Positions 6 through 13,838 of a stretch of 32,734 nt of DNA are shown here, in pieces. How positions within the stretch are numbered: the first letter of the stretch is position 1; every line of letters begins with the position of its first letter. Under the pieces are notes generated by a model, which did not search any database, was not told where the DNA came from, and worked only from the letters and a program-made list of their open reading frames with translations. This DNA comes from Bacillota bacterium (lineage in GTDB: Bacteria; Sysuimicrobiota; Sysuimicrobiia; Sysuimicrobiales; Segetimicrobiaceae). The position numbers were made by a program, and so were the translations under genes. The DNA lies in the NCBI GenBank assembly GCA_021324255.1, contig JAJPJL010000007.1, forward strand, positions 1-32,734, written 5' to 3'.

Positions 6-106
6 CGGGGCTGGTTCCGGCTCTTCGGCGGCCCGGCCGACTTCGGTGGAAGTCCCGCGGCTTTGCGTCCCCGCCTCACGGCGGGTTTGCCCGTTCGGAA
101 GCCCCG
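6..106 (-). promoter_or_regulatory. c-di-GMP-I (GEMM) riboswitch aptamer
   Basis: Read on the minus strand, the two hallmark GEMM blocks are present in the right order: GGGCAAACC (plus coordinates 84-92) and GGGACGCAAAGC (60-71). Between them is a 6-bp stem closed by a GTGA (GNRA) tetraloop (70-85, loop 76-79). A second hairpin follows, GACTTC/GAAGTC with a CACC loop. The closing P1 helix is also there: CGGGGC and TTCCG at 96-106 pair with GCCCCG and CGGAA at 6-19. The G that matches Vc2 G20 is kept, which favours c-di-GMP over cGAMP. The expression platform and the controlled gene lie to the left of position 1, outside the window. The aptamer starts about 50 nt past the stop of the minus-strand ATP-grasp gene, so it may respond within a readthrough transcript or have its own promoter. 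The motif match is seen directly; ligand and control direction are inferred. Confidence 0.8.
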
Positions 107-158: not shown

Positions 159-1112
159 CTACTTCCCTGCCGGCGCCGCGGTCGATATCCGCCACAAACC
201 ACCCAGGTACCGATCGAACTCGTACGAGTCGAAGTAGAAGCGGCCCGCACCGGGCGTCACGGCGGTTTCTCCGAAGTACACTTGGGTCCCGCTGTCGTAC
301 ATGTCGACCCGGAGAAAGTCGAGCGGCCGGGCCAGGGTCTCGGCGCAGGCGATCAGCTCGTCGAGATGTGCGGGAGGCGGCGCGTCGCGCTCCAGGGGCT
401 GGTATCGTGCCGAGGCCACCGGAAGCTTGTGCCAGGACGGATCGTAGAAGCTCATCCGCGCGCCGGTCAAATATCCCTGCACGACCTGGATCATGCGAAC
501 GGTCCCGTCGAATACAAAGCATTTGTAATCGGTCGGCGTCGGTCCGGTGCCGTCGCTGATGAGCTCCTCGATGAGCACGCGCGGCTCGATCGGCCGGTAC
601 ATGGGCTCCCGAAAATGGAAATAGTAATTTTCCCCGAGCCACGAGCGGCACGTGCCGATCAACTCGTCCCGGTCCACCTCGGCTTTGTCGAGCACGACCC
701 GCACCCAGTGGGAGCCGTGTGACGCCTTCACCACGAAGGTATCCGGCAGCGCATCGAAGGGGATGTCTTCCGGCGCCGTCGTGGTCCAGTAGAGTCGAGG
801 CAGCACAGCCCCACCGACCGCATCGCGCACATACTCGCGGACGGCGTACTTGTCGGACAGCATGGTGAGAATCGGCCGCCGGTCGAATATCATCCGGTAC
901 AGGACCTTCTCCGTAAAGGTCCTCGGCTGAAACAGATTGGGGAACCTGCCGAACTGCATGCGGTAACCGCGCAGCGCCACCCACAACTCCGTCACCCTGT
1001 CCGCGAGCACCGCCGACACGGGGCCCGGGGCCGCCCGCCGCACGGCGCGCGGCGCCTCGTGTGTCGATGACGACCCCGTTACGCGCGCCGGATCCGCGCG
1101 GTCAACTGACAC
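159..1112 (-). CDS. TupA-like ATP-grasp enzyme
   Basis: This belongs to the TupA-like ATP-grasp family, named for a teichuronopeptide synthesis protein. ATP-grasp enzymes join a carboxylate to an amine or thiol through an acyl-phosphate, so a cell-wall or polysaccharide peptide ligase role is plausible; the substrate is unknown. Visible signatures are an FTEKVLYRM segment near the N-terminus, the nucleotide-binding stretch VVKASHGSHWVRVV, VLIEELI, PTDYKCFVFDG, and the C-terminal metal site RVDMYDSG...YFGE...PGAGRFYF. I chose the GTG at 1112 (317 aa) because GGAGG lies 8 nt upstream; an in-frame TTG at 1151 would add 13 residues with no comparable ribosome site. It is the last gene of the minus-strand group and follows an aminotransferase that could supply or process an amino acid. 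The family call is secure; the reaction is inferred. Confidence 0.85.
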   Translation of the reverse strand: MSVDRADPARVTGSSSTHEAPRAVRRAAPGPVSAVLADRVTELWVALRGYRMQFGRFPNLFQPRTFTEKVLYRMIFDRRPILTMLSDKYAVREYVRDAVGGAVLPRLYWTTTAPEDIPFDALPDTFVVKASHGSHWVRVVLDKAEVDRDELIGTCRSWLGENYYFHFREPMYRPIEPRVLIEELISDGTGPTPTDYKCFVFDGTVRMIQVVQGYLTGARMSFYDPSWHKLPVASARYQPLERDAPPPAHLDELIACAETLARPLDFLRVDMYDSGTQVYFGETAVTPGAGRFYFDSYEFDRYLGGLWRISTAAPAGK

Positions 1113-1214
1113 ACCGAGCACCTCCGTGTCGTGCAGCGTGACGCTGCCCAATGACCCGCCGCCGCGGGCCCCGAACGCGCCGCCCCCGAGGCACGGACGG
1201 CCGCGGTCCTCGTG

Positions 1215-2147
1215 TCACGAAACGTCCCCGGCGTCGTAGACGGGGGTCGCCCAGCGGGTGTGGGCCGGGTTGCGAACGGCGTCGTCCAGCGCCTTCCCGA
1301 GCCGCACGGTCAACGGACCGGGCGCGCCGGGCCCCACCGGATACCGGTCGACCGACACGATCGGCGTGACGCCCACAAGCGTCGTCGTGGCAAAGACCTC
1401 GTCCGCCGCATAGAGCTCGGACCGGTCGACCGGCCGCTCCACCATCGTGATGCCCATCTCGCGGCCCAGGTCGAGGATCGCCTGCCGTGTGATGCCCTCG
1501 AGGATCCCGCTCGCCACGTCGGGCGTCACCACCACGCCCGACCGCACCAAAAAGACGTTGGCAAGAGGTAACTCGCACACGTTGCCCGCGACGCTGGTGA
1601 GGATCGCGTCGTCGTACCCGTCCACCTTGGCTTGGATCTGGGCGAGCCGTACGTTGTGATAGTTCGCGCCCGCCTTGACCCGCGGGGGCGCCGCGATGTC
1701 GGGCAAGCGCTGCCATCCCGACGTGCACACATGGAGCCCTCCGGGGCGGCGGCCGGCGGTGGCGGCCTTGGCGACCATGAAGACTCCCGTCGTGATCTCC
1801 TCGGGGCGATAGCTGAAGACGGGCCCCGCGCCGAAGTACGCGACGATCCGCACGCCCGCATCCTCGCGAAACCCGTTCATGGCGACGAGCCGCCGGGCGG
1901 CGGCGCCGAGCTCCTCGTCCGAGTAGGGCACGGCGAGCCGCATGACCTTGGCCGACAGCCGCAGGCGCTGGAGGTGTTCGTGCAGGCGAAAGAAGTACAG
2001 GTTGTCCCCCGCCCGCGACCGGAATGCGCCGACCACCTCGTACGCGTTGAGGCCGCCGAGCACACACTGGGTGTCCACGTGCAGGCAGGCGTCGGCCCAG
2101 TCAACGATGCGTCCGTCGAGCCATCCGTAGCGCGGGGCCTGAGTCAT
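1215..2147 (-). CDS. class IV PLP aminotransferase (BCAT/DAAT-like)
   Basis: This 310-residue protein has the fold-type IV pattern of branched-chain and D-amino-acid aminotransferases and aminodeoxychorismate lyases. The likely Schiff-base lysine is K158 in RVKAGANYHN. The following acidic motif is CELPLANVFLV (E192), and GILEGITRQ and the TTTLVGVTPIVSVD segment come later. N-terminal WLDGRIV and RLHEHLQRL also fit the family. It would transfer an amino group between an amino acid and a 2-oxoacid, but substrate and stereochemistry cannot be read from the sequence. The reading frame stays open upstream through the regulator gene; the ATG at 2147 is where homology begins and lies 32 nt after the regulator stop. 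Its place between a two-component pair and an ATP-grasp ligase suggests an amino acid destined for the envelope rather than housekeeping synthesis (inference). Confidence 0.85.
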   Translation of the reverse strand: MTQAPRYGWLDGRIVDWADACLHVDTQCVLGGLNAYEVVGAFRSRAGDNLYFFRLHEHLQRLRLSAKVMRLAVPYSDEELGAAARRLVAMNGFREDAGVRIVAYFGAGPVFSYRPEEITTGVFMVAKAATAGRRPGGLHVCTSGWQRLPDIAAPPRVKAGANYHNVRLAQIQAKVDGYDDAILTSVAGNVCELPLANVFLVRSGVVVTPDVASGILEGITRQAILDLGREMGITMVERPVDRSELYAADEVFATTTLVGVTPIVSVDRYPVGPGAPGPLTVRLGKALDDAVRNPAHTRWATPVYDAGDVS

Positions 2148-2179
2148 GACCGCCGGGCGCAGCCGCCCTGCCCCCGGTC

Positions 2180-2968
2180 CTAATCCGTGGGGGAAGACGC
2201 GCGACCGGGCTTGGCGCCCGGGCCGGTGCCGGTGGCGTTGCCCCTCGACGGGGCCTCCTTTGGCGCAGCAAGCGGATCGGGGCTGTCCGCGGCGTCCGGC
2301 CGCGGCCACGTGGTCTGAGGCTGGAGGAGGTTCTTTTCGATCGCCCATGCCGCCGCATGGGCGCGGTTTCGCAGGCCCAGCCGGCGGTAGATGGACCGAA
2401 GGTGGCTCTTCACCGTCGACTCCGACAGGAAGAGCTTGGCGGCAATCTCCTTGTCCGCGAGGCCGCGGGCGACCTCGACCAGGACTTCGAGGTCGCGGTC
2501 GGTCAGGCCGTGGAGCCCCCTCCTGACCGGTTCGGTGCCGAAGCCGTTGCTCGCGAGGTCCTCGAGCAGCTGCCGGGCGATATTGGTGTTGATCATCGTG
2601 CGTCCCTGATGCACCGCCCGAATCGCACGGATCATGTTCTCCGGCGAGATGTCCTTCAGCACGTAGCCGACCGCGCCCGCGGCGATCGCCTTGCGGAACA
2701 ATCCCGGCTCGCTGTAGACGGTCAGGATCAGGACCTGCGTCGCCGGGCACTCCTGTTTGATCGCGCGCGTCGCCTCGATGCCGTCGCCGCCCGGCATCTT
2801 GAGATCCATGAGCACCACGTTCGGCTTGAGTTGCGCCGTCAGCCGGACGGCTTCCGGGCCGCTCTCCGCTTCGCCGACCACCTCGATGTCCGCGGCGTCC
2901 TGGAGTACGACCCGCAGGCCGACGCGGGTCAAGCTCTGATCGTCCACGATCAAGAGACGAATCGTCAT
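2180..2968 (-). CDS. NarL/FixJ-family response regulator
   Basis: This is a DNA-binding response regulator, 262 aa. The receiver domain (about 1-118) has the acidic pair D9/D10, phospho-acceptor D55 in VVLMDLKMP, switch T83 and conserved K105. The LuxR-type helix-turn-helix is at about 155-212 (LTDRDLEVL...STVKSHLRSIYRRLG). A tail of about 45 residues rich in Pro, Ala and Gly follows and is longer than usual for the family. The gene begins 28 nt after the histidine kinase stop, and GGGGG 7 nt before the ATG can serve as ribosome site, so the kinase is its likely partner. All phosphorylation residues are present, unlike in the second regulator at 4295. Targets are unknown; the divergent intergenic region and the polysaccharide operon are reasonable candidates. 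Confidence 0.93.
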   Translation of the reverse strand: MTIRLLIVDDQSLTRVGLRVVLQDAADIEVVGEAESGPEAVRLTAQLKPNVVLMDLKMPGGDGIEATRAIKQECPATQVLILTVYSEPGLFRKAIAAGAVGYVLKDISPENMIRAIRAVHQGRTMINTNIARQLLEDLASNGFGTEPVRRGLHGLTDRDLEVLVEVARGLADKEIAAKLFLSESTVKSHLRSIYRRLGLRNRAHAAAWAIEKNLLQPQTTWPRPDAADSPDPLAAPKEAPSRGNATGTGPGAKPGRASSPTD

Positions 2969-2996
2969 GCAATGGCCCCCGTTTCGGGAGAAGAGC

Positions 2997-5037: not shown

Positions 5038-5247
5038 ATGGCGGAGCGACACGTCAAGCTGAACGAGAAGCACGGCGGATCTCAGCATCCGCAATGGCCG
5101 ATCGGTTCGGCATTCGCGTATCAATCGTCGATCTGGCGGGTGCAGGGTCTGTATCTCGCGCCCACGTCCTCGGGCAGCCGCGAGCTGTGGTGGATCTTGG
5201 ACGAGCAGAAACCCGAGGCTTCGGATCTCGACAGCGGAGGCGAGTGA
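5038..5247 (+). CDS. small protein of unknown function, 69 aa
   Basis: A convincing short gene: GGAGGGG lies 4 nt before the ATG, and its stop is 2 nt before the start of the exporter gene, whose ribosome site (GGAGG) is inside this ORF. The product is soluble, has no signal peptide or membrane segment, and is rich in aromatic residues (W20, W33, W51, W52, several Tyr). Its core, WPIGSAFAYQSSIWRVQGLYL, looks like a beta-rich fold, followed by WWILDEQKPE and an acidic tail. I do not recognise a family. Position between a regulator and the export protein suggests an accessory or regulatory role in polysaccharide export. Confidence 0.7.
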   Translation: MAERHVKLNEKHGGSQHPQWPIGSAFAYQSSIWRVQGLYLAPTSSGSRELWWILDEQKPEASDLDSGGE

Positions 5248-5249
5248 TC

Positions 5250-6362
5250 ATGAGGCACGTGCTGCAACGACTGCGGAGGTACGCCGCGCCGGGACTGGCG
5301 CTTGCGGTGATGCTTGCGGCCGCGGGCCCCGCGGCAACGGCGCCGGTCTACATGGGACCGCCGCCGCAGGTCGGCGCGTCCCCATCCGGACAGCAGCCGG
5401 GGACGCCTCCGGCCGGACAGCAGCCGGGCGCGCCTCCGCCCGCCGATCAGGCCGTGCCGCCGTCGGCCCCTGGGTCGTCGACGCAGGCGCCCGTCGGCCC
5501 GGGCGCGCAGGCCGGCCAGAGCGACCAGCCGTACACGGTGCAGCCCGGCGACGTCCTCCAAATCTCGGTCGTGGGGGAGCCGGAGGTCACGGGCGCCGTC
5601 ACCGTGAGCCCGGACGGCGCGATCCAAATGCCGCTCGTCGGCCGGATCCCCGCGGCCGGCGCGACCCTGCCGCAACTCACGGACCGCGTGACCCAGGCGC
5701 TCAAGACGTACATCCGTGAGCCGCAGGTCGCGATCACGATTTCCCAGACCGCAACGCGCCAGCAGTTCGTGTACGTGCTGGGCCAGGTGGGGCGGCCCGG
5801 CGCCTACCAGATGCAGGAAGGCCTCACGATTGCCGGCGCGATCGCCGCGGCCGGCGGTCCGACCCCGAGCGCGGAGTTGACGCACGCCTTCATCATGCGC
5901 AAGTCCCAGACGATTCCCATCGACCTCCAGAGCCTGCTCGTCGACGGGAATACCCAGGCGAACGCGCAGGTGCAGCCGGGCGACGTCATCATGGTGCCCC
6001 AGGGCCGCGATCGCGTGCTCCTCATGGGGGCGGTAGCGCGGCCGGGCGCGTACGTGATCAACCCCGGTGACCGTCTGGTCGACCTGCTCTCCGCGGCCGG
6101 CGGCTCGGCGCAGGGCGCACAGCTCAAGAACGTCGGCATCATCCGGCACACCGTCCAGGCGAACACCGCGGCGGCGCCCAACAAGCCGACGGTGACCCAG
6201 GTCGACCTGACCAAGTTCTACACGAAGGGCGACATGACGCAGAACGTCGAGCTGCAGGCGGGGGACATCGTCTACGTGCCGGAGCGGGGACAGCATCCGA
6301 TCTGGGACTCGTTCCTCAACACGCTGGGAGGCCTGGGCTGGCTCGTGTGGTTCATGCACTGA
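5250..6362 (+). CDS. polysaccharide export protein (OPX/Wza-type)
   Basis: This 370-residue secreted protein belongs to the polysaccharide biosynthesis/export (OPX) family. An N-terminal signal peptide (about 1-31, hydrophobic core APGLALAVMLAAAG) is followed by a Pro/Gly/Gln-rich linker (about 36-90). The Poly_export domain begins at YTVQPGDVLQISVVGEPEV (about 95-165), and two SLBB-type domains follow (from about 172, VYVLGQVGRPGAY, and about 256, VLLMGAVARPGAY). No lipobox cysteine is present, so it is not a lipoprotein like E. coli Wza. The C-terminus ends in a short hydrophobic stretch (GLGWLVWFMH) rather than the long amphipathic helix that forms the Wza outer-membrane pore. The start at 5250 is set by GGAGG 9 nt upstream and the signal peptide; the frame is open further upstream. 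It probably works with the co-polymerase encoded next. Confidence 0.92.
   Translation: MRHVLQRLRRYAAPGLALAVMLAAAGPAATAPVYMGPPPQVGASPSGQQPGTPPAGQQPGAPPPADQAVPPSAPGSSTQAPVGPGAQAGQSDQPYTVQPGDVLQISVVGEPEVTGAVTVSPDGAIQMPLVGRIPAAGATLPQLTDRVTQALKTYIREPQVAITISQTATRQQFVYVLGQVGRPGAYQMQEGLTIAGAIAAAGGPTPSAELTHAFIMRKSQTIPIDLQSLLVDGNTQANAQVQPGDVIMVPQGRDRVLLMGAVARPGAYVINPGDRLVDLLSAAGGSAQGAQLKNVGIIRHTVQANTAAAPNKPTVTQVDLTKFYTKGDMTQNVELQAGDIVYVPERGQHPIWDSFLNTLGGLGWLVWFMH
5386..5439 (+). repeat. 27-bp tandem repeat, two copies
   Basis: Two adjacent near-identical 27-bp units encode the nonapeptides SGQQPGTPP and AGQQPGAPP in the Pro-rich linker of the export protein. The unit length is a multiple of three, so copy number could change without a frameshift and would alter the spacer between signal peptide and export domain. 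Confidence 0.75.
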
Positions 6363-6437: not shown

Positions 6438-8600
6438 ATGGAATTCTGGCGATATTATCGGGTGCTCCGGCAGCGCTGGGTGGTCATCGTGGTGGCCATG
6501 GCCGCGGCGATCGGCGTCGGACTCGTCGGCGCGCGCCCCGGCGGCGATGATTACGCGGCCGTCGCGACGATGTCGGTGCCCGCCACGTCCCAGTTCCTCT
6601 TCATCGCGAACGTGGGCTCCGGTCCCATGCCCACGTCCGACCAGCTCATGCAGCTCGCGATCAATCTCGTGCGCAGCCGGGACGTGGCGACGCGGGCCAT
6701 CCAGCAGCTCCAGCTCGCCCTCACCCCCGAGGACCTCGCCACCCGCATCGCCGTGCAGCAGGACCCGAGCGGTGATATGCTTCGCGTCACCGCCAAGGGA
6801 CCGACGCCGGCCGCGGCCGTGATGCTCGCAAACGCCATCGTCGACAACGCCGCGGCGTTCAGCCGGGATGTCCAGCGCCGCGAATCCACGCTCGGCCGCG
6901 AGTTCATCGAGAAGCAGCTCGCGGACGCGCAGACCAACCTCCGCGCGGCGGAGGACGCCCTGCTCGCCTACCAGCAGAAGAACGGGGTGGCGCTCGCGTC
7001 CGGCCAGAGCGCCGAGATCGGCGCGCTCCAGGCCGAGGCCCAGCAAAACGACTTCGCGCTCCAGGAAGCCAACGCGAAGATCGCGTCGTACACCTCGCAG
7101 ATGCAGGCGGCCGGGGCCGCCCCCGCGCAGCTCCAGGACAACGCGGTCACCCAGCAGCTCCGCGCCGAGCTCGTGCAGCTCGAGGTCCAGCTCGCCGCCC
7201 AGCTGGCGGTACACACGGACGCCTACCCCGCGGTCGTCGCCCTCAAGGCGCAAATCGACGCGGTCAAAGGGCGCCTCAACACGGAGCTGCAGAAGATCGC
7301 GGCCACGAGCCAGGGGCAGCATACCCCGATGTACGAGGCGCTCGCCATGAACCGGATCGCCGCGCAGACCGACCAGATCGCGCTCGAGGCGCGCAGGCAG
7401 GCGATCCAGCAGGCGATCACCGCGGCGACGCAGCATCTGCCGACGGTCGCGCAGACCCAACTCGACGCGGCGCGGCTGAACCGCACGGCGGAGATCCTCA
7501 CGACCCAGGTCGCCAACCTGGAAGGCCAGCTCGCCCAAGCCCGCGTCCGCGAGCAGGAGATGCAGAGTCTCGGGGCCCTGACGGTCCTGGATCACGCCAG
7601 CAGCGCATTCGCCTCGCCGTTCTCCGGCAAGCCGTTCAAGCTCACGCTCGCGGGCGTGCTCGGGCTGCTCGGCGGGATCGGGCTCGCGTTCTTCCTGGAA
7701 TATGTGGATACGAGCATCAAGACGCCGGAGATGGCGGAGCGTCTGCTCGGGGTGCCGGCGCTCGTCGCCATCCCCCGGCACAACCCGCCGTTCGACGAGG
7801 CGTACCGCCTGCTGACCGTCAACCTCCTGGCGCGCGAGCCGGGCGACGGCGGCGGCGTCGTGATCGCCGTGACGAGCCCGCAGCCGCGCTCGGGAACGTC
7901 GACGGTCGTCTCCAACCTCGCGCAGGCGTTCGCCGCGGCGGGCCAGCGCACGGTGGTCGTCGACGCCGCCCTCCGGGAGCCGGTGCAGCACGCCCTGTTC
8001 AACGTCGCCAACGAGAAAGGCGTCGCCGAGGTCCTGGCCGGGACCGCCACGCTCCCGGAGATCCTCATGCCGGTGAAGCCGAACCTGTGGCTGGTCACGA
8101 GCGGCGCGGAGCGCACGCCGGACATGGGCATGCAGCTCGGGTCCGCGGCCATGGCATCGGTGCTGGCGGACCTGCGCCAGCGCGCCGACGTGATCCTCGT
8201 CGACACGTCGTCCGCCGGCGCGTTCGCGGACGTGTACGCGCTGGCCCCGCTGGCGTCCGGCGCGCTGATCGTCCTGGACGGCAGCCGCGCCCCGCGGGGC
8301 ATCGAGGAGCAGGTCAAGCTGCAGTTCGACCGGCTCGGCACGCCGGTCATCGGTTCGGTCCTGAGCAAGGTGCGGCCGGACCTGGTCGACAGCTATTACT
8401 ACCAGGAGTACTTCTACCGCAACCGTGCCGTGGCCAGGATCGCGCCGGCGGCCGCCACCACGAGCCTCGCGCTGCTCGTCGTCGCGGGCGGGCTCACGGT
8501 CGGGTTGTGGCTGTGGTTCCACTCGGGCGGCATCGCGGACCGGGCGCTGGCGCAGCCGGCCCCCAATGCACCGTCGCTGGTGAATCTCACGCGGAGGTAA
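6438..8600 (+). CDS. Wzc-like chain-length protein with degenerate BY-kinase domain
   Basis: This 720-residue membrane protein joins a Wzz-type co-polymerase to a bacterial tyrosine kinase-like domain. Its order is TM1 (about 14-33), a long extracytoplasmic Ala/Gln-rich coiled-coil region, TM2 (about 402-420), then a P-loop domain (about 470-645). The nucleotide-binding motifs have decayed. Walker A reads SPQPRSGTST, with T487 where the essential Lys belongs. Walker A' reads VVVDAALREP, with A511 replacing the second Asp. Walker B is VILVDTSS (D589). A tyrosine cluster, DSYYYQEYFY (651-660), is nevertheless kept, and a third hydrophobic segment (about 674-695) follows, which standard Wzc/CapB tails lack. 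It probably controls chain length or links polymerase to exporter, and is predicted not to be an active kinase. GGAGGG 8 nt upstream supports the start. Confidence 0.9.
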   Translation: MEFWRYYRVLRQRWVVIVVAMAAAIGVGLVGARPGGDDYAAVATMSVPATSQFLFIANVGSGPMPTSDQLMQLAINLVRSRDVATRAIQQLQLALTPEDLATRIAVQQDPSGDMLRVTAKGPTPAAAVMLANAIVDNAAAFSRDVQRRESTLGREFIEKQLADAQTNLRAAEDALLAYQQKNGVALASGQSAEIGALQAEAQQNDFALQEANAKIASYTSQMQAAGAAPAQLQDNAVTQQLRAELVQLEVQLAAQLAVHTDAYPAVVALKAQIDAVKGRLNTELQKIAATSQGQHTPMYEALAMNRIAAQTDQIALEARRQAIQQAITAATQHLPTVAQTQLDAARLNRTAEILTTQVANLEGQLAQARVREQEMQSLGALTVLDHASSAFASPFSGKPFKLTLAGVLGLLGGIGLAFFLEYVDTSIKTPEMAERLLGVPALVAIPRHNPPFDEAYRLLTVNLLAREPGDGGGVVIAVTSPQPRSGTSTVVSNLAQAFAAAGQRTVVVDAALREPVQHALFNVANEKGVAEVLAGTATLPEILMPVKPNLWLVTSGAERTPDMGMQLGSAAMASVLADLRQRADVILVDTSSAGAFADVYALAPLASGALIVLDGSRAPRGIEEQVKLQFDRLGTPVIGSVLSKVRPDLVDSYYYQEYFYRNRAVARIAPAAATTSLALLVVAGGLTVGLWLWFHSGGIADRALAQPAPNAPSLVNLTRR

Positions 8601-8608
8601 CACGTTTC

Positions 8609-9937
8609 GTGGATGCGGTAACAACGCAGGAGCCCGCAACGGGGCTGGAATCGAAGATTCGCACGCGCGCCGCGCGCGTCGGGGTGATCGGCCTGGGGTA
8701 CGTCGGCCTCGCCCTCGCGGTCGAGACCGCCGAGATCGGGTTCCCCGTCGTGGGCATCGAGATCGACGAGGACAAAGCCGCGATGGTCAACGGCTGCCGG
8801 TCCTATATCGGCGACGTCACCGACGACGCGCTGGATCGCGTCGTCGCCGCCGGACGGTTCCGCGCGACGACGGACTACGGCGCGCTCCGGGACGCGGACG
8901 TCATCATCATCTGCGTGCCGACGCCGCTCACCAAGAGCAAGGAGCCGGACCTCTCCCACGTGATCGCGGCCGCCCAGGCATGCGTGCCGGCGATCCGGCG
9001 CGACACGCTCGTCGTCCTGGAGAGCACCACGTATCCGGGCACGACCGTCGAGGTCGTGAAGCCGATCCTGGAGACGAGCGGCCTCCAGGCCGGAGCGGAC
9101 TTCGCGCTGGCGTTTTCGCCCGAGCGGATCGATCCCGGCAACCGGCGGTACAGCCTGCGCTCGATTCCCAAAGTGGTGGGCGGCATGACGCCGGCGTCGA
9201 CGCAGGTCGCGCGGACCTTTTACGAGCAGATCGCGAACACGGTCGTGCCCGTGTCCTCCCCCACGGTCGCCGAGATGGTCAAGGTCTACGAGAACGTGTT
9301 CCGCAACGTCAACATCGCGCTCGTGAACGAACTGACCCTGCTCTGCGATCGCATGTCGCTCGACGTGTGGGAGATCATCGAAACCGCGGCGACGAAGCCG
9401 TACGGCTTCATGCCGTTCTATCCCGGGCCCGGCGTGGGCGGACACTGCATTCCCGTCGATCCGTACTACCTGTCGGCGAAGGCCCGCGAGTACGACTTCC
9501 ACGCCCGGTTCATCGAGCTCGCCGCCACGGTCAACGACAGCATGCCGTACTACGTCGTCTCGCGGACGACGGGGGCGCTGGAGGCACGGGGCAAGACGTT
9601 GTGGGGGTCCAGGGTGCTGCTGCTCGGCGTGGCCTACAAGCGCGACATTCCGGATGTTCGGATGTCGCCCGCGCTCAAGGTCTTGGGGCTGCTCCACAAG
9701 CGCGGCGCGTCGGTGTCATATCACGATCCGCACGTGCCCGAGATCGCGCTGGCCAACCCGGGGACGATCCGGTCGCAGCCGCTCACCGACCAGGTCCTCG
9801 CGGATGTCGACTGCGTCATCCTCACGACGGATCACACCGCGATCGACTACGATCGCATCGTCGCGCGCGCTCCGCTGATCATCGACACGCGCAACCGGCT
9901 GCACGACTACCGGGCGTCGCACGTGGTCCGGCTCTGA
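8609..9937 (+). CDS. nucleotide-sugar 6-dehydrogenase (WbpA/WecC type)
   Basis: This UDP-sugar dehydrogenase (442 aa) oxidises C6 of a UDP-sugar to the uronic acid using two NAD+. The N-terminal Rossmann motif is GLGYVG (28-33). The catalytic cysteine is C280 in GPGVGGHCIPVDPYYL. That sequence, with the following KAREYDFHARFIELA, resembles UDP-GlcNAc 6-dehydrogenase (WbpA) and UDP-ManNAc dehydrogenase more than UDP-glucose dehydrogenase. The C-terminal UDP-binding domain includes GVAYKRDIPDVRMSPALKVL. The start is GTG at 8609, with GGAGG 11 nt upstream inside the end of the co-polymerase gene; the frame is open further upstream but overlaps that gene. Its product would give the polymer negatively charged residues and a carboxyl group for later amidation. 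Confidence 0.93.
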   Translation: MDAVTTQEPATGLESKIRTRAARVGVIGLGYVGLALAVETAEIGFPVVGIEIDEDKAAMVNGCRSYIGDVTDDALDRVVAAGRFRATTDYGALRDADVIIICVPTPLTKSKEPDLSHVIAAAQACVPAIRRDTLVVLESTTYPGTTVEVVKPILETSGLQAGADFALAFSPERIDPGNRRYSLRSIPKVVGGMTPASTQVARTFYEQIANTVVPVSSPTVAEMVKVYENVFRNVNIALVNELTLLCDRMSLDVWEIIETAATKPYGFMPFYPGPGVGGHCIPVDPYYLSAKAREYDFHARFIELAATVNDSMPYYVVSRTTGALEARGKTLWGSRVLLLGVAYKRDIPDVRMSPALKVLGLLHKRGASVSYHDPHVPEIALANPGTIRSQPLTDQVLADVDCVILTTDHTAIDYDRIVARAPLIIDTRNRLHDYRASHVVRL

Positions 9938-9998: not shown

Positions 9999-11561
9999 AT
10001 GAAGGGACACGCTTCGGCCGCGCGGGCGACGCTGCTGCTCGCCCTGGGGCTCGGTGCCGCCGTGGCCTTCGGCAGCATCGTCCTCCCGGGGTCGCGCGCG
10101 CTGCTCGGACTCGTGGCGGCGGGCGTGGCGGTCGTGACGCTCTTCAACCCGAAGATCGCGCTGTACCTCATCGTCCCGGCCATGACGTTGTCGCCGGAAC
10201 TCCCGCTCCACGGCGTCGCGGTGCGCATCGAGGACCTGATGATGGTGCCGCTGACCGTCGGATGGCTGGCGCACCTGTGCGTCGCCAAGACCCGCCGCAA
10301 GACGCCGTTCGACCGCATCCTCCTGGCCTACGTCCTCGTCAGCATCGCGGCCACGATCTGGGGCGCCGCGCTCGGGACCGTGCACCTCGCGGCCGTGAGC
10401 AAGTACGACAGCTCGCCGCTCCACGTCCTCAAGCGGATCGAGTTCGTCGTGCTCTTCTTCATCGTCGCGGATACCGTGGAGTCCCTGGCCGACGCCAGCC
10501 GGATCACGTACGTCCTCCTCGGCTCCATGATCGCGCTCAGCCTCTATTCGGCCTGGCAGTTTCACACCAACCAGGCGATCGCGCTGGGCCCCGAGGGCGC
10601 GCCCGTCCACGAGCCCGGCATGGCGTCGATGGTGACCGTCGGGCTCGCGCTCGGGCTGATGCGGAGCGCCGCCACCCCGCGCGCGCGTTTCGCCCTCACG
10701 CTGATCGTGCTGTTCGGCGTGGCCACGTTGCCGCTCGCGCTCGGCCGCAACTACATCGCCGCGACGTTGATCATCCTGCTGTACGTCGGCTTCCGGGAAC
10801 AGCGGTGGATCCTCTTCGCCGTGCCGGCGCTCGGCGCGCTGGCGTTCCTCGTGTACCCCGAAGGGGTGGCCCACCGGATCCTCACCCTCGGCAACGTGTT
10901 CTCGCCCGACCTGAGCACGCTCAACCAGACGTCGACCGCGCCGACATCGATCTTCTACCGAGCCCAGGCACCGCTCTACTACACGATGTGGGCGCTCGGC
11001 GCGTCGCCGTTGCTGGGGCTTGGGATGGGCAGCGTCCCGCTGGGCTTCATCGACAGCGAGTACGTCATCCAGCTGTTCTATACGGGGCTCGTCGGGCTGG
11101 CGATCTTTCTCCTCTTCGGCGCCAGGTTGTTCCGGGTGATGCGGACCATGGCGCGAGCGACCACGGACGCCCAGGCCGCCGGCCTCGTCCAGGGAGGCAT
11201 GCTCGTGATCCTGGGATACGCCGTCTACAGCCTCTTCGCGGCGTCGGTCTCGGCCACGCACACGGGAGGGCCGTTCTTCGTTCTGGCGGCCGTCATCGGC
11301 TCGCTGTCGCGCATCCTCCTTCCGCAACCGGCGGCGCAGGCGGCACGGGGCCGCATCGGGAGCCGGGCGCTCGTCCCGGTTCGGGCGACGGCGCTGCTCG
11401 GGGGCCGGACCGCCGACAACCCGTGGAAGCGCCTCGTCGTGAGGCGGCAGGTCTCCGCCCCGCCGCGCCCGGCCGCCCGCTCCCGGCGTGAGTTGTGGGC
11501 GCCGTCCGGCGACCGCCGGCTGTCGGCCTTGCCGCGGGCCGCGTCCGATCCGCGTTCCTGA
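9999..11561 (+). CDS. Wzy/WaaL-type O-antigen polymerase or ligase
   Basis: This 520-residue integral membrane protein has around ten or more hydrophobic segments and the organisation of the O-antigen ligase/polymerase superfamily. The most diagnostic part is the late segment ASPLLGLGMGSVPLGF...SEYVIQLFYTGLVGLAIFLLFG, matching the family pattern of a glycine-rich loop followed by an amphipathic stretch and GLVG. A basic, Pro/Arg-rich cytoplasmic tail of about 75 residues (from about 445) is unusual. The family covers both Wzy polymerases and ligases, and sequence alone does not separate them; next to Wzc- and Wza-like genes a polymerase is favoured. The ATG overlaps the stop of a 21-codon mini-ORF (ATGA) and has only a weak ribosome site, suggesting coupling. 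Confidence 0.85.
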   Translation: MKGHASAARATLLLALGLGAAVAFGSIVLPGSRALLGLVAAGVAVVTLFNPKIALYLIVPAMTLSPELPLHGVAVRIEDLMMVPLTVGWLAHLCVAKTRRKTPFDRILLAYVLVSIAATIWGAALGTVHLAAVSKYDSSPLHVLKRIEFVVLFFIVADTVESLADASRITYVLLGSMIALSLYSAWQFHTNQAIALGPEGAPVHEPGMASMVTVGLALGLMRSAATPRARFALTLIVLFGVATLPLALGRNYIAATLIILLYVGFREQRWILFAVPALGALAFLVYPEGVAHRILTLGNVFSPDLSTLNQTSTAPTSIFYRAQAPLYYTMWALGASPLLGLGMGSVPLGFIDSEYVIQLFYTGLVGLAIFLLFGARLFRVMRTMARATTDAQAAGLVQGGMLVILGYAVYSLFAASVSATHTGGPFFVLAAVIGSLSRILLPQPAAQAARGRIGSRALVPVRATALLGGRTADNPWKRLVVRRQVSAPPRPAARSRRELWAPSGDRRLSALPRAASDPRS

Positions 11562-11702: not shown

Positions 11703-12539
11703 ATGACCGCCACCGCAATCGAGCTCGTCATCGAGTCGACCAACTACACGCGTCCCCGTGACCGCGCGCGCGAGCTGTGGGCGTTTCGCGAGGTCGTCCT
11801 GGCGTTCGCGGAGCGCAATATTCGCGTCAAGTACAAGCAGGCCGTCCTCGGGGTCTTGTGGGCGGTGCTTCAGCCCCTGATCTTTCTCGGCATCTTCATG
11901 GTCGTCTTCGGCCGCATGGGCAACATCTCCGGCGGAGCCACCTCGTACCCCGCGTTTGCGCTCGCCGCCCTGGTCCCCTGGTTTTTCGTGCAGACGGCCG
12001 TCACGTTCGGCGCGCAGGCGCTGCTCATGGACAGCGCGCTGCTGCGCAAGGTCTACTTCCCCCGCGAGGCCCCCGTGATCGGCGCGGTGCTGAGCGCGGG
12101 ACTCGACTTCGCCGTCGGCTTCGTCCTGCTGCTCGTCCTGGAACCGCTGCTCGGGGGCCATCTGTCGTGGAACCTGCTCATGGCGGTCCCGTTGTGGCTG
12201 GTCCTCGCGGTGCTCACGACCGGGGTCTCGTTGATCCTCGGAGCGCTGAACGTGTATTATCGAGATTTCCGGTTCGTCCTTCCCGTGGTGCTGCAGCTGT
12301 GGATGTTCGGCAGTCCCGTCGCGTACCCGCTGAGCGCCGTGCACGCGGAGTGGCGCGGCGCGTACGTCCTGCTCAACCCCGCGGCCGGGGTGCTCGACGG
12401 CTTTCGCCGCGCGCTCGCGGAGGGGCGCCTGCCGGACCTGGGTCTCCTGGGGCTCAGCACCGCCGTGTCATGCCTCGTGGCGTGGTTCGGCTACTGGTTG
12501 TTCAAACGCATGGAACCCGGATTCGCCGATGTGGTGTAA
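11703..12539 (+). CDS. wzm: polysaccharide ABC transporter permease (Wzm)
   Basis: This ABC-2-type permease (278 aa) has six hydrophobic segments and the Wzm/TagG landmarks: WAFREVVLAFAERNIRVKYKQAVLGVLWAVLQPL near the N-terminus, a central ALVPWFFVQTAV, then LNVYYRDFRFVLPVVLQLWMFGSPVAYP. It would move lipid-linked glycan across the cytoplasmic membrane together with the ATPase encoded 3 nt downstream. Length is standard. A GGAGGAG lies rather far (about 13 nt) from the ATG. Confidence 0.93.
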   Translation: MTATAIELVIESTNYTRPRDRARELWAFREVVLAFAERNIRVKYKQAVLGVLWAVLQPLIFLGIFMVVFGRMGNISGGATSYPAFALAALVPWFFVQTAVTFGAQALLMDSALLRKVYFPREAPVIGAVLSAGLDFAVGFVLLLVLEPLLGGHLSWNLLMAVPLWLVLAVLTTGVSLILGALNVYYRDFRFVLPVVLQLWMFGSPVAYPLSAVHAEWRGAYVLLNPAAGVLDGFRRALAEGRLPDLGLLGLSTAVSCLVAWFGYWLFKRMEPGFADVV

Positions 12540-12542
12540 CCG

Positions 12543-13838
12543 ATGAGCTGGGCGATTCGATTCGAGGGCGTCAGCAAGAAATACCCGGGCGCCGGGTGGG
12601 GCTATCCATCCCTGCGGGGCGACCTCAGCCGCCTCGGCCGCTCCGTCGCAGCGCGGTTCATGCGCCGGAAGGGGGATCCCGGCGGCCCGTTCGCGCTGCG
12701 CGATGTCTCCTTTGACGTGAAGGAAGGCGAGGCGTTCGCCATCGTCGGACCCAACGGCGCCGGCAAGACCACGGCCCTCAAGCTCTTGACCAGGATCTCG
12801 TTCCCGACGCGGGGGCGCATCCGCGTGCGCGGCCGCATCGGCGCGCTGATCGAGGTCGGATCGGGCATCCACCCGGAGCTGACCGGGCGCGAGAACATCT
12901 GGCTGTACGGCCGCATCATGGGCATGTCACGGCAGGAGATCAGCCGCCGGTTCGACGAGATCGTGGACTTCGCCGAGCTCGGCGACGTCCTCGACCGGAC
13001 GGTGAAGCGGTACTCCTCCGGGATGCAGCTTCGGTTGGGGTTCTCGATCGCCAGCCACCTGGACCCCGACATCTTCGTCGTGGACGAAGCCCTCGCCGTC
13101 GGCGACGCGGGCTTCCAGGCGAAGTGCGTCGAGCGGATGATGCGCCTCGTCGCCGAGGGGCGAACGCTCCTCTTCGTCTCGCACAACCTCACCGCCGTGG
13201 AGGCCATCTGCCGGCGCGGCATCTTTCTGCTCGACGGGCAGATCGAGCGGGACGGCGCGATCCGCGAGGTCCTCCAATCGTACGTCGATTGGATCGACGC
13301 GCGCCAGCAGGAGCGGTGGAGTTCCCCGGGGGCGCCGCGGGGCCGGGGGCTCGCGGTCGAGCGCGTCTCGTTTCACGACGCGTCGGGAGCGGAATGCGCG
13401 GCGTTTCGGACCGGCGATACCATCGAGATCCGCATCGCCGTGCGGCCGTCGCGGCCCATCGTGCAGCCGGCCTTCGCGTTCGGGATCACCGACGGGCGCC
13501 CCGGCAGCCTGATCATTTGCTCCATGGCGGTGGACGGCCAGGTGCCGCCCGTCATCGACCGGCCGACGGTGGTGTCGTGCCGGATCCACGACCTCCCGTT
13601 GCTGCCCCGGGTGTACCAGACGTGGTGCAGCGTGATCGGCAACCACGCGTACGGCGACCTCCTGGACTGGCAGATCGTCGGCACGTTTCGCGTCATGGAG
13701 GGGCCCCTGGGCGCGGGCGCCCCGGCGCCGCTGAGCGCGCTTCGCACGAGCGGCGTGATCCATGTCGCGCATGCCTGGGACGTTGCGACGACCGGCGACC
13801 CGGACGTCGTCGCCGCGGCCGAGGGGTACTCGCCGTGA
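12543..13838 (+). CDS. wzt: polysaccharide ABC transporter ATPase with C-terminal domain (Wzt)
   Basis: This is the ATP-binding partner of the permease, 431 aa. The nucleotide-binding domain contains Walker A GPNGAGKT (69-76), signature YSSGMQLRLGFS, Walker B IFVVDEALAVGD and the switch SHN. The last 165 residues or so (from about 265) form a separate beta-rich domain (GLAVERVSFHDASGAEC...) like the carbohydrate-binding C-terminal domain of Wzt proteins that recognise the finished O-antigen terminus before export. Such a domain implies that chains are completed in the cytoplasm and recognised by an end cap, at least in the characterised O8/O9a-type systems. Its stop overlaps the next GT2 start by 4 nt (GTGA), so synthesis of exporter and transferase is coupled. 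Confidence 0.93.
   Translation: MSWAIRFEGVSKKYPGAGWGYPSLRGDLSRLGRSVAARFMRRKGDPGGPFALRDVSFDVKEGEAFAIVGPNGAGKTTALKLLTRISFPTRGRIRVRGRIGALIEVGSGIHPELTGRENIWLYGRIMGMSRQEISRRFDEIVDFAELGDVLDRTVKRYSSGMQLRLGFSIASHLDPDIFVVDEALAVGDAGFQAKCVERMMRLVAEGRTLLFVSHNLTAVEAICRRGIFLLDGQIERDGAIREVLQSYVDWIDARQQERWSSPGAPRGRGLAVERVSFHDASGAECAAFRTGDTIEIRIAVRPSRPIVQPAFAFGITDGRPGSLIICSMAVDGQVPPVIDRPTVVSCRIHDLPLLPRVYQTWCSVIGNHAYGDLLDWQIVGTFRVMEGPLGAGAPAPLSALRTSGVIHVAHAWDVATTGDPDVVAAAEGYSP

Follow-up and report, generated by a model that had tools for sequence, protein, structure and literature searches.

A polysaccharide co-polymerase with a conserved, lysine-less BY-kinase-like domain, a candidate phosphorylation-independent scaffold for export

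The open reading frame at 6438–8600(+) of the window (the whole 32,734-nt stretch of DNA that was analyzed) encodes a 720-aa protein identified from profile matches and alignments as a Wzz/Wzc-type polysaccharide co-polymerase (PCP), PCP-2a-like, with a fused BY-pseudokinase domain. With moderate confidence, this domain is read as a phosphorylation-independent structural scaffold, probably octameric, that couples export to an OPX protein.

Domain layout and active-site residues

A profile search of the 720-aa protein matched the polysaccharide chain-length-determinant family TIGR03007 over residues 9–448 (121 bits) and the BY-kinase model TIGR01007 over residues 474–658 (103.5 bits, slightly below the curated cut-off of 108). 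PF02706 (Wzz) covered residues 5–91, with 23 bits in the protein scan (cut-off 25.5) and 26.5 bits in the genome scan, and the structurally solved relatives are CapAB, Wzc, VpsO, Etk, and BceF. The Wzz domain, the two flanking TM helices, and the fused cytoplasmic domain with a BY-kinase fold are those of a PCP-2a protein; assignment to PCP-3 (KpsE/CtrB) is contradicted by a TIGR01010 score of 32.4 bits, against a cut-off of 437.5, and by the presence of the kinase-fold domain. Two AlphaFold runs (three sequences) were of low confidence (mean pLDDT 49 and 51), so we only infer the oligomeric state and helix placement discussed below. The features of the protein are as follows.

6438–8600 (+): PCP-2a-like polysaccharide co-polymerase with BY-pseudokinase domain, 720 aa (TIGR03007, TIGR01007, solved relatives)
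6477–6533 (+): TM helix 1, residues 14–32 (hydropathy; inside the PF02706 stretch)
7641–7697 (+): TM helix 2, residues 402–420 (hydropathy)
7860–8390 (+): core of the BY-kinase-like (pseudokinase) domain, residues 475–651 (TIGR01007, solved relatives, Wzc alignment, dN/dS)
7872–7904 (+): degenerate Walker A, TSPQPRSGTST, residues 479–489, with T487 in place of the catalytic Lys (alignment)
7962–7970 (+): Walker A', DAA, residues 509–511, first Asp kept and second gone (alignment)
8202–8213 (+): Walker B, DTSS, residues 589–592, Asp kept and TPP motif altered (alignment)
8394–8417 (+): C-terminal tyrosines Y653, Y654, Y655, Y658, and Y660 (sequence; Y653 alone invariant among 14 homologues)
8463–8519 (+): third hydrophobic helix, probable TM, residues 676–694 (hydropathy; seen in 12 of 14 fused homologues)

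The stretch singled out in the sequence-only reading, 7860–8420, runs from codon 475 to codon 661, that is, from the P-loop strand through the end of the tyrosine cluster. Residues were mapped onto E. coli Wzc (L137, from MG1655), giving the correspondences K540 to T487, T541 to S488, D562 to D509, D564 to A511, and D642 to D589. This alignment bears out the earlier observations that the P-loop matches those of BY-kinases but has T487 for the lysine and that A511 replaces the second Walker A' Asp. Among the residues that mark active BY-kinases, the Walker A lysine (GK[ST]) is therefore missing and the Walker A' DxD is reduced to D509-A-A511; the Walker B Asp is present as D589 and is invariant across the 14 homologues. 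Homology to the BY-kinase fold with catalytic residues missing is the pattern of BY-pseudokinases of the EcpK/HfsB kind. The search for homologues sharing the substitutions, which the sequence-only reading had proposed, showed that the Walker A lysine is absent from all 14 fused homologues, drawn from two phyla (T in 12, S in 1, R in 1), and two further homologues of the second phylum carry the same Arg. The position of the second Walker A' Asp drifts between A, D, Q, and N, and the P-loop residues G486, S488, and T489 are invariant along with D509 and Y653.

In Wzc, the K540M mutant cannot autophosphorylate and forms a homogeneous octamer (PMC8285477); with the lysine missing throughout the fused family, the proposal that the protein is a pseudokinase incapable of autophosphorylation is supported. 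The accompanying proposal that ATP binding is lost is less secure, as the invariant P-loop Gly/Ser/Thr and D509/D589 leave a nucleotide- or Mg-binding pseudo-site possible. A possible, though doubtful, alternative to the scaffold reading builds on these residues: the domain would be a nucleotide sensor whose site, incapable of phosphotransfer, would still bind Mg-nucleotide or a different ligand, and its being filled or empty would switch the oligomeric state. It is consistent with invariance of the Mg-coordinating P-loop Ser/Thr and both aspartates, in contrast to the drift at the second Walker A' Asp, and with a basic residue at position 482 in 11 of 14 fused members against 0 of the 16 intact kinases of the set. 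Fold constraints alone may, however, explain the conservation, and a basic residue at 482 is neither universal (the window genus has Q482, with R or H at 484) nor specific to pseudokinases, since the S. aureus CapB1 P-loop, TSEKPGAGKST, has one at the equivalent position. In MinD/ParA proteins, the deviant-Walker-A lysine occupies position 482. Catalysis through a relocated R/K482 was rejected, because the window genus does not have this residue and CapB1 does.

Conservation and distribution of lysine-less proteins

Independent MAGs contain homologues that share the substitutions, at 97% (L007/L010), 79% (L011), and 57% (L008/L012) identity, so neither sequencing error nor chance accounts for them. 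The kinase-like domain is in frame and intact in 14/14 homologues, and its dN/dS in the closest pairs was 0.018 (L010) and 0.07 (L011), compared with 0.075 and 0.18 for the periplasmic domain. Pseudogene decay was rejected on these values, and "decayed", the earlier description of the kinase site, is misleading for a domain under strong purifying selection. Because the lysine is gone family-wide and the dN/dS of the domain is low, the domain is conserved for something other than phosphotransfer. It is very improbable that the kinase part has no function and is simply carried along by a PCP that still works: the loss of catalytic residues and the recurrence of independent losses in the phylum (G001:C109, G006:C26) would suit such a vestige, but the kinase part shows stronger conservation than the periplasmic part, has stayed in frame, and persists in bipartite systems as a gene of its own.

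The phylum was sampled with 43 genomes of one order, nearly all of them draft assemblies; this makeup would agree with CSP1-3/Sysuimicrobiota (PMC11604079), a tentative assignment. In a kinase-domain tree from which the motif columns were left out, the fused proteins without the lysine, one of which comes from another phylum, formed a clade (96/85), and a minimum of three changes is required to explain where on this tree the lysine is present or absent. Lysine-less kinases are also found in the phylum as stand-alone proteins of bipartite systems, with A, S, V, or T at that position (G005, G014, G021, G023, G026, G032, and G041), and the kinases at G023:C37, G032:C4, G041:C1, G014:C20, and G026:C1 (998 kb) are pseudokinases too. 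The tree comparison neither establishes nor rejects a single origin of the fused and bipartite lysine-less proteins (p-AU 0.306). A second fused co-polymerase lineage, consisting of L066 (G001:C109) and L077 (G006:C26), underwent a separate loss of the Walker A Lys (T/Q) and of the Walker B Asp. Both of these proteins have kept their tail tyrosines, and their loci are of Wzx type. Intact kinases do occur in the phylum (e.g., L024, L027, L028, and L030), with stand-alone ones in G008, G010, and G011. The comparisons indicate that the catalytic lysine was lost long ago in an old family.

The bipartite PCPs L074, L075, L076, L078, L079, L070, and L067 have a third TM helix, and their partners are stand-alone kinase-like proteins without the Walker A Lys; these pairs resemble HfsA/HfsB.

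Tyrosine tail, third helix, and the search for phosphorylation partners

Residues 651–662 read DSYYYQEYFYRN. The retained tyrosine cluster described in the sequence-only reading is there, with five tyrosines at 653, 654, 655, 658, and 660, but retention across the family extends to Y653 alone, and homologue L014 has a single tail tyrosine. The median number of tail tyrosines is 4 in fused members and 6 in intact kinases, a shortfall with a Mann-Whitney p of 1e-4 that is not corrected for relatedness.

The third hydrophobic helix starts ~16 residues past Y660 (mean Kyte-Doolittle 1.96 over residues 676–694) and by hydropathy is found in 12/14 fused members and 0/16 intact kinases. To that extent, the earlier claim of an extra C-terminal helix foreign to standard Wzc/CapB is upheld, but stand-alone PCPs of the same phylum likewise carry the helix, and one of them (G008:C196) adjoins an intact stand-alone BY-kinase, which weakens its candidacy as a hallmark of pseudokinases. 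In L022 (G057:C1), a homologue from another phylum, a RodZ_C domain (PF13464, residues 819–886) follows the third TM helix. RodZ_C is normally an extracytoplasmic domain, and its location beyond the helix supports a third membrane crossing; the helix probably does cross the membrane, a topology deduced from sequence. Other architectures were seen in the family. G061 and G062 look the same as L022, with a C-terminal RodZ_C; L018 and L019 (G022:C6, G019:C7) have an insert in the periplasmic region (~residues 250–330) and no third TM helix; and L016 (G006:C16) has a repetitive Gly/Ala-rich C-terminal extension of ~200 residues past it.

The tyrosines could in principle be modified in trans, with another kinase adding phosphate and a phosphatase removing it, as the sequence-only reading had suggested. 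Its statement that the window contains neither a partner kinase gene nor a phosphatase gene is correct for the genes annotated here. Searches of the window genome (completeness 94.85%) with the TIGR01007 and PF13614 models found no intact BY-kinase, and the other matches to these models look like proteins of the ParA, MinD, Mrp, and ArsA types. Intact BY-kinases were absent from 11 of the 13 phylum genomes with the fused form (10/12 when the window genome is excluded) and present in G010 and G011 only; the searches were able to detect such kinases, as shown by those found in the same phylum. Neither the window genome (G000) nor G006 yielded a low-molecular-weight (LMW) tyrosine phosphatase. 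Other genomes have one, located away from the fused locus except in G019 and G022, where it lies ~24 kb away. Phosphorylation in trans is thus disfavored and judged improbable, given that intact BY-kinases are missing from the window genome and most of its fused-form relatives. The persistence of all five tyrosines in the window genus and the intact stand-alone BY-kinases of a few relatives (G008, G010, G011) would agree with it; against it are the BY-kinase result, the reduction of the invariant tail to Y653, the single tyrosine of L014, and the LMW phosphatase result in G000 and G006, from searches that covered BY-kinases and LMW phosphatases.

Export locus, proposed role, and known systems

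The genes surrounding the fused protein include the following.

5094–6362 (+): OPX protein (Poly_export and two SLBB_2 domains), probable outer-membrane/periplasmic partner (domain matches; adjacent homologue at most fused members)
8600–9937 (+): nucleotide-sugar dehydrogenase, WecC/TviB-like, directly downstream (TIGR03026 profile match; conserved neighbor)
9999–11561 (+): polytopic membrane protein with 9 hydrophobic segments, possibly Wzy/WaaL-like (hydropathy; conserved neighbor)
11703–12539 (+): ABC-2 polysaccharide exporter permease, Wzm-like (domain annotation)
12543–13838 (+): ABC exporter ATPase with a weak Wzt_C-like C-terminal domain (domain annotation)

The order OPX, fused pseudokinase, WecC/TviB-like dehydrogenase, and polytopic membrane protein is conserved, and the window contains many glycosyltransferases along with the Wzm-like and Wzt-like exporter genes. 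The polytopic protein gave no Pfam, NCBIfam, or PDB match, and in its homologues the sole match was to Wzy_C (E=0.0012, 1/7); it is a candidate polymerase or ligase. Co-loss of the Tyr71 phosphosite of E. coli Ugd was considered and proved uninformative, as the neighboring enzyme is a dehydrogenase of the WecC/TviB kind and none of the sequences has the Tyr. Upstream of the cluster are a TupA-like ATP-grasp protein at 159–1151(-) and a class IV aminotransferase frame at 1215–2972(-). A c-di-GMP-I-GGC riboswitch aptamer at 23–100(-) scored 62.5 bits with RF03167, above gathering, and the gene it controls would be outside the window. A viral_contigs scan gave no match. The window genome encodes BamA, which indicates that the organism, a soil bacterium, is diderm despite the NCBI label Bacillota of close relatives; in a diderm host an OPX protein makes sense.

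Among the 9 fused loci with sufficiently long flanks, 7 have an ABC2_membrane gene within ~13 kb (G000, G001, G002, G006, G007, G019, and G022), and no Wzx was found on the contigs of these seven. At G031 and G057, Wzx is close by, and at G004 there is no ABC exporter close by and Wzx is 11 kb away. A switch to ABC export is not supported as a simple explanation for the loss of the lysine, because the pseudokinases of G031 and G057 adjoin Wzx. Since deep-branching members have Wzx, lysine loss probably preceded, or was separate from, the association with ABC exporters.

The scaffold reading draws on structural data for Wzc, in which K540-D642 pairing stabilizes the open state and T541-D642 contact marks the closed, octamer-compatible state (PMC8517177). 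The change of K to T with S488 and D589 kept should therefore favor a standing octamer. Without the lysine there would be no autophosphorylation and hence no Wzc-style cycle of octamer and monomer driven by phosphorylation. By analogy with Wzc K540M, the protein would be a constitutive octamer in which S488 and D589 could still form the contact of the closed state, and its third TM helix would hold what was once the tyrosine tail close to the membrane. Such a standing inner-membrane/periplasmic scaffold would dock on the OPX protein and couple it to the exporter, Wzm/Wzt here and Wzx in some relatives, and any switching would occur through protein-protein contact or nucleotide occupancy instead of phosphotyrosine. 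A locked octamer alone would fail in E. coli, where capsule production needs Wzc cycling. More tentatively, and as an unlikely but possible history, the BY-kinase domain may have been converted early in this phylum into a non-catalytic and possibly nucleotide-gated structural element of the export machinery, which lost the lysine but not its Mg-site residues and acquired a third membrane anchor before passing from Wzx- to ABC-exporter-dependent pathways. If true, this would give a PCP-2-derived protein doing the job of a PCP-3. The KpsE/CtrB PCP-3 proteins of ABC-transporter-dependent capsules resemble the window protein as a probable PCP link between an ABC polysaccharide exporter and OPX; PCP-3 proteins are not known to carry a kinase domain.

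Among the closest known systems, E. coli Wzc has the Wzz domain and the two TM helices in common with the window protein, as well as the P-loop kinase domain and the C-terminal tyrosines, and it can be aligned over the whole kinase domain. Unlike Wzc, the window protein has K540 and D564 replaced, a third TM helix, a shorter linker between TM2 and the kinase domain, and an altered oligomerization motif (EX2RX2R, with T for the last R). A dead kinase as PCP partner is a concept already known from EcpK/EpsV, HfsB/HfsA, and fused PCP-2/pseudokinases, as reported in PMC12004946. EcpK/EpsV of Myxococcus xanthus is likewise a BY-pseudokinase working with a PCP-2 and proposed to be a scaffold without phosphorylation, but EcpK is a separate protein of a Wzx/Wzy pathway and has lost all Walker motifs and the C-terminal Tyr (PMC12004946). 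HfsB of Caulobacter crescentus, as summarized in the same source, is a stand-alone BY-pseudokinase required by its PCP, HfsA, and differs in being bipartite and having no Tyr tail; on that summary, the bipartite pseudokinase pairs of the phylum (e.g., G023:C37) are closer to HfsB/HfsA than is the window protein. The fused PCP-2/BY-pseudokinases of Cuthbertson et al., S. meliloti SMc01795 and V. vulnificus VV1_2305 (via PMC12004946), are described as combining a TM/periplasmic PCP part with a dead BY-kinase domain in one polypeptide, as seen here. Compared with them by description, not by sequence, the window protein belongs to a diderm phylum labeled Bacillota at NCBI, has a third TM helix, keeps the Walker B Asp, the first Walker A' Asp, and the P-loop Ser/Thr, and comes from a family found mostly at ABC-exporter loci.

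New relative to known BY-pseudokinases are thus the lineage, the third helix, the retained Mg-site residues, and the ABC-exporter context, a combination not found described in the open-licence full-text papers searched. According to the Wzc model, polymer cannot be exported without cycles of tyrosine phosphorylation; a phylum with many dead but strongly conserved kinase domains, in which most genomes that carry the fused form have no intact BY-kinase, offers a natural test of structural versus catalytic Wzc function. The phosphorylation-independent PCP-2 group of EcpK and HfsB gains another diderm lineage and a presence at ABC-exporter loci.
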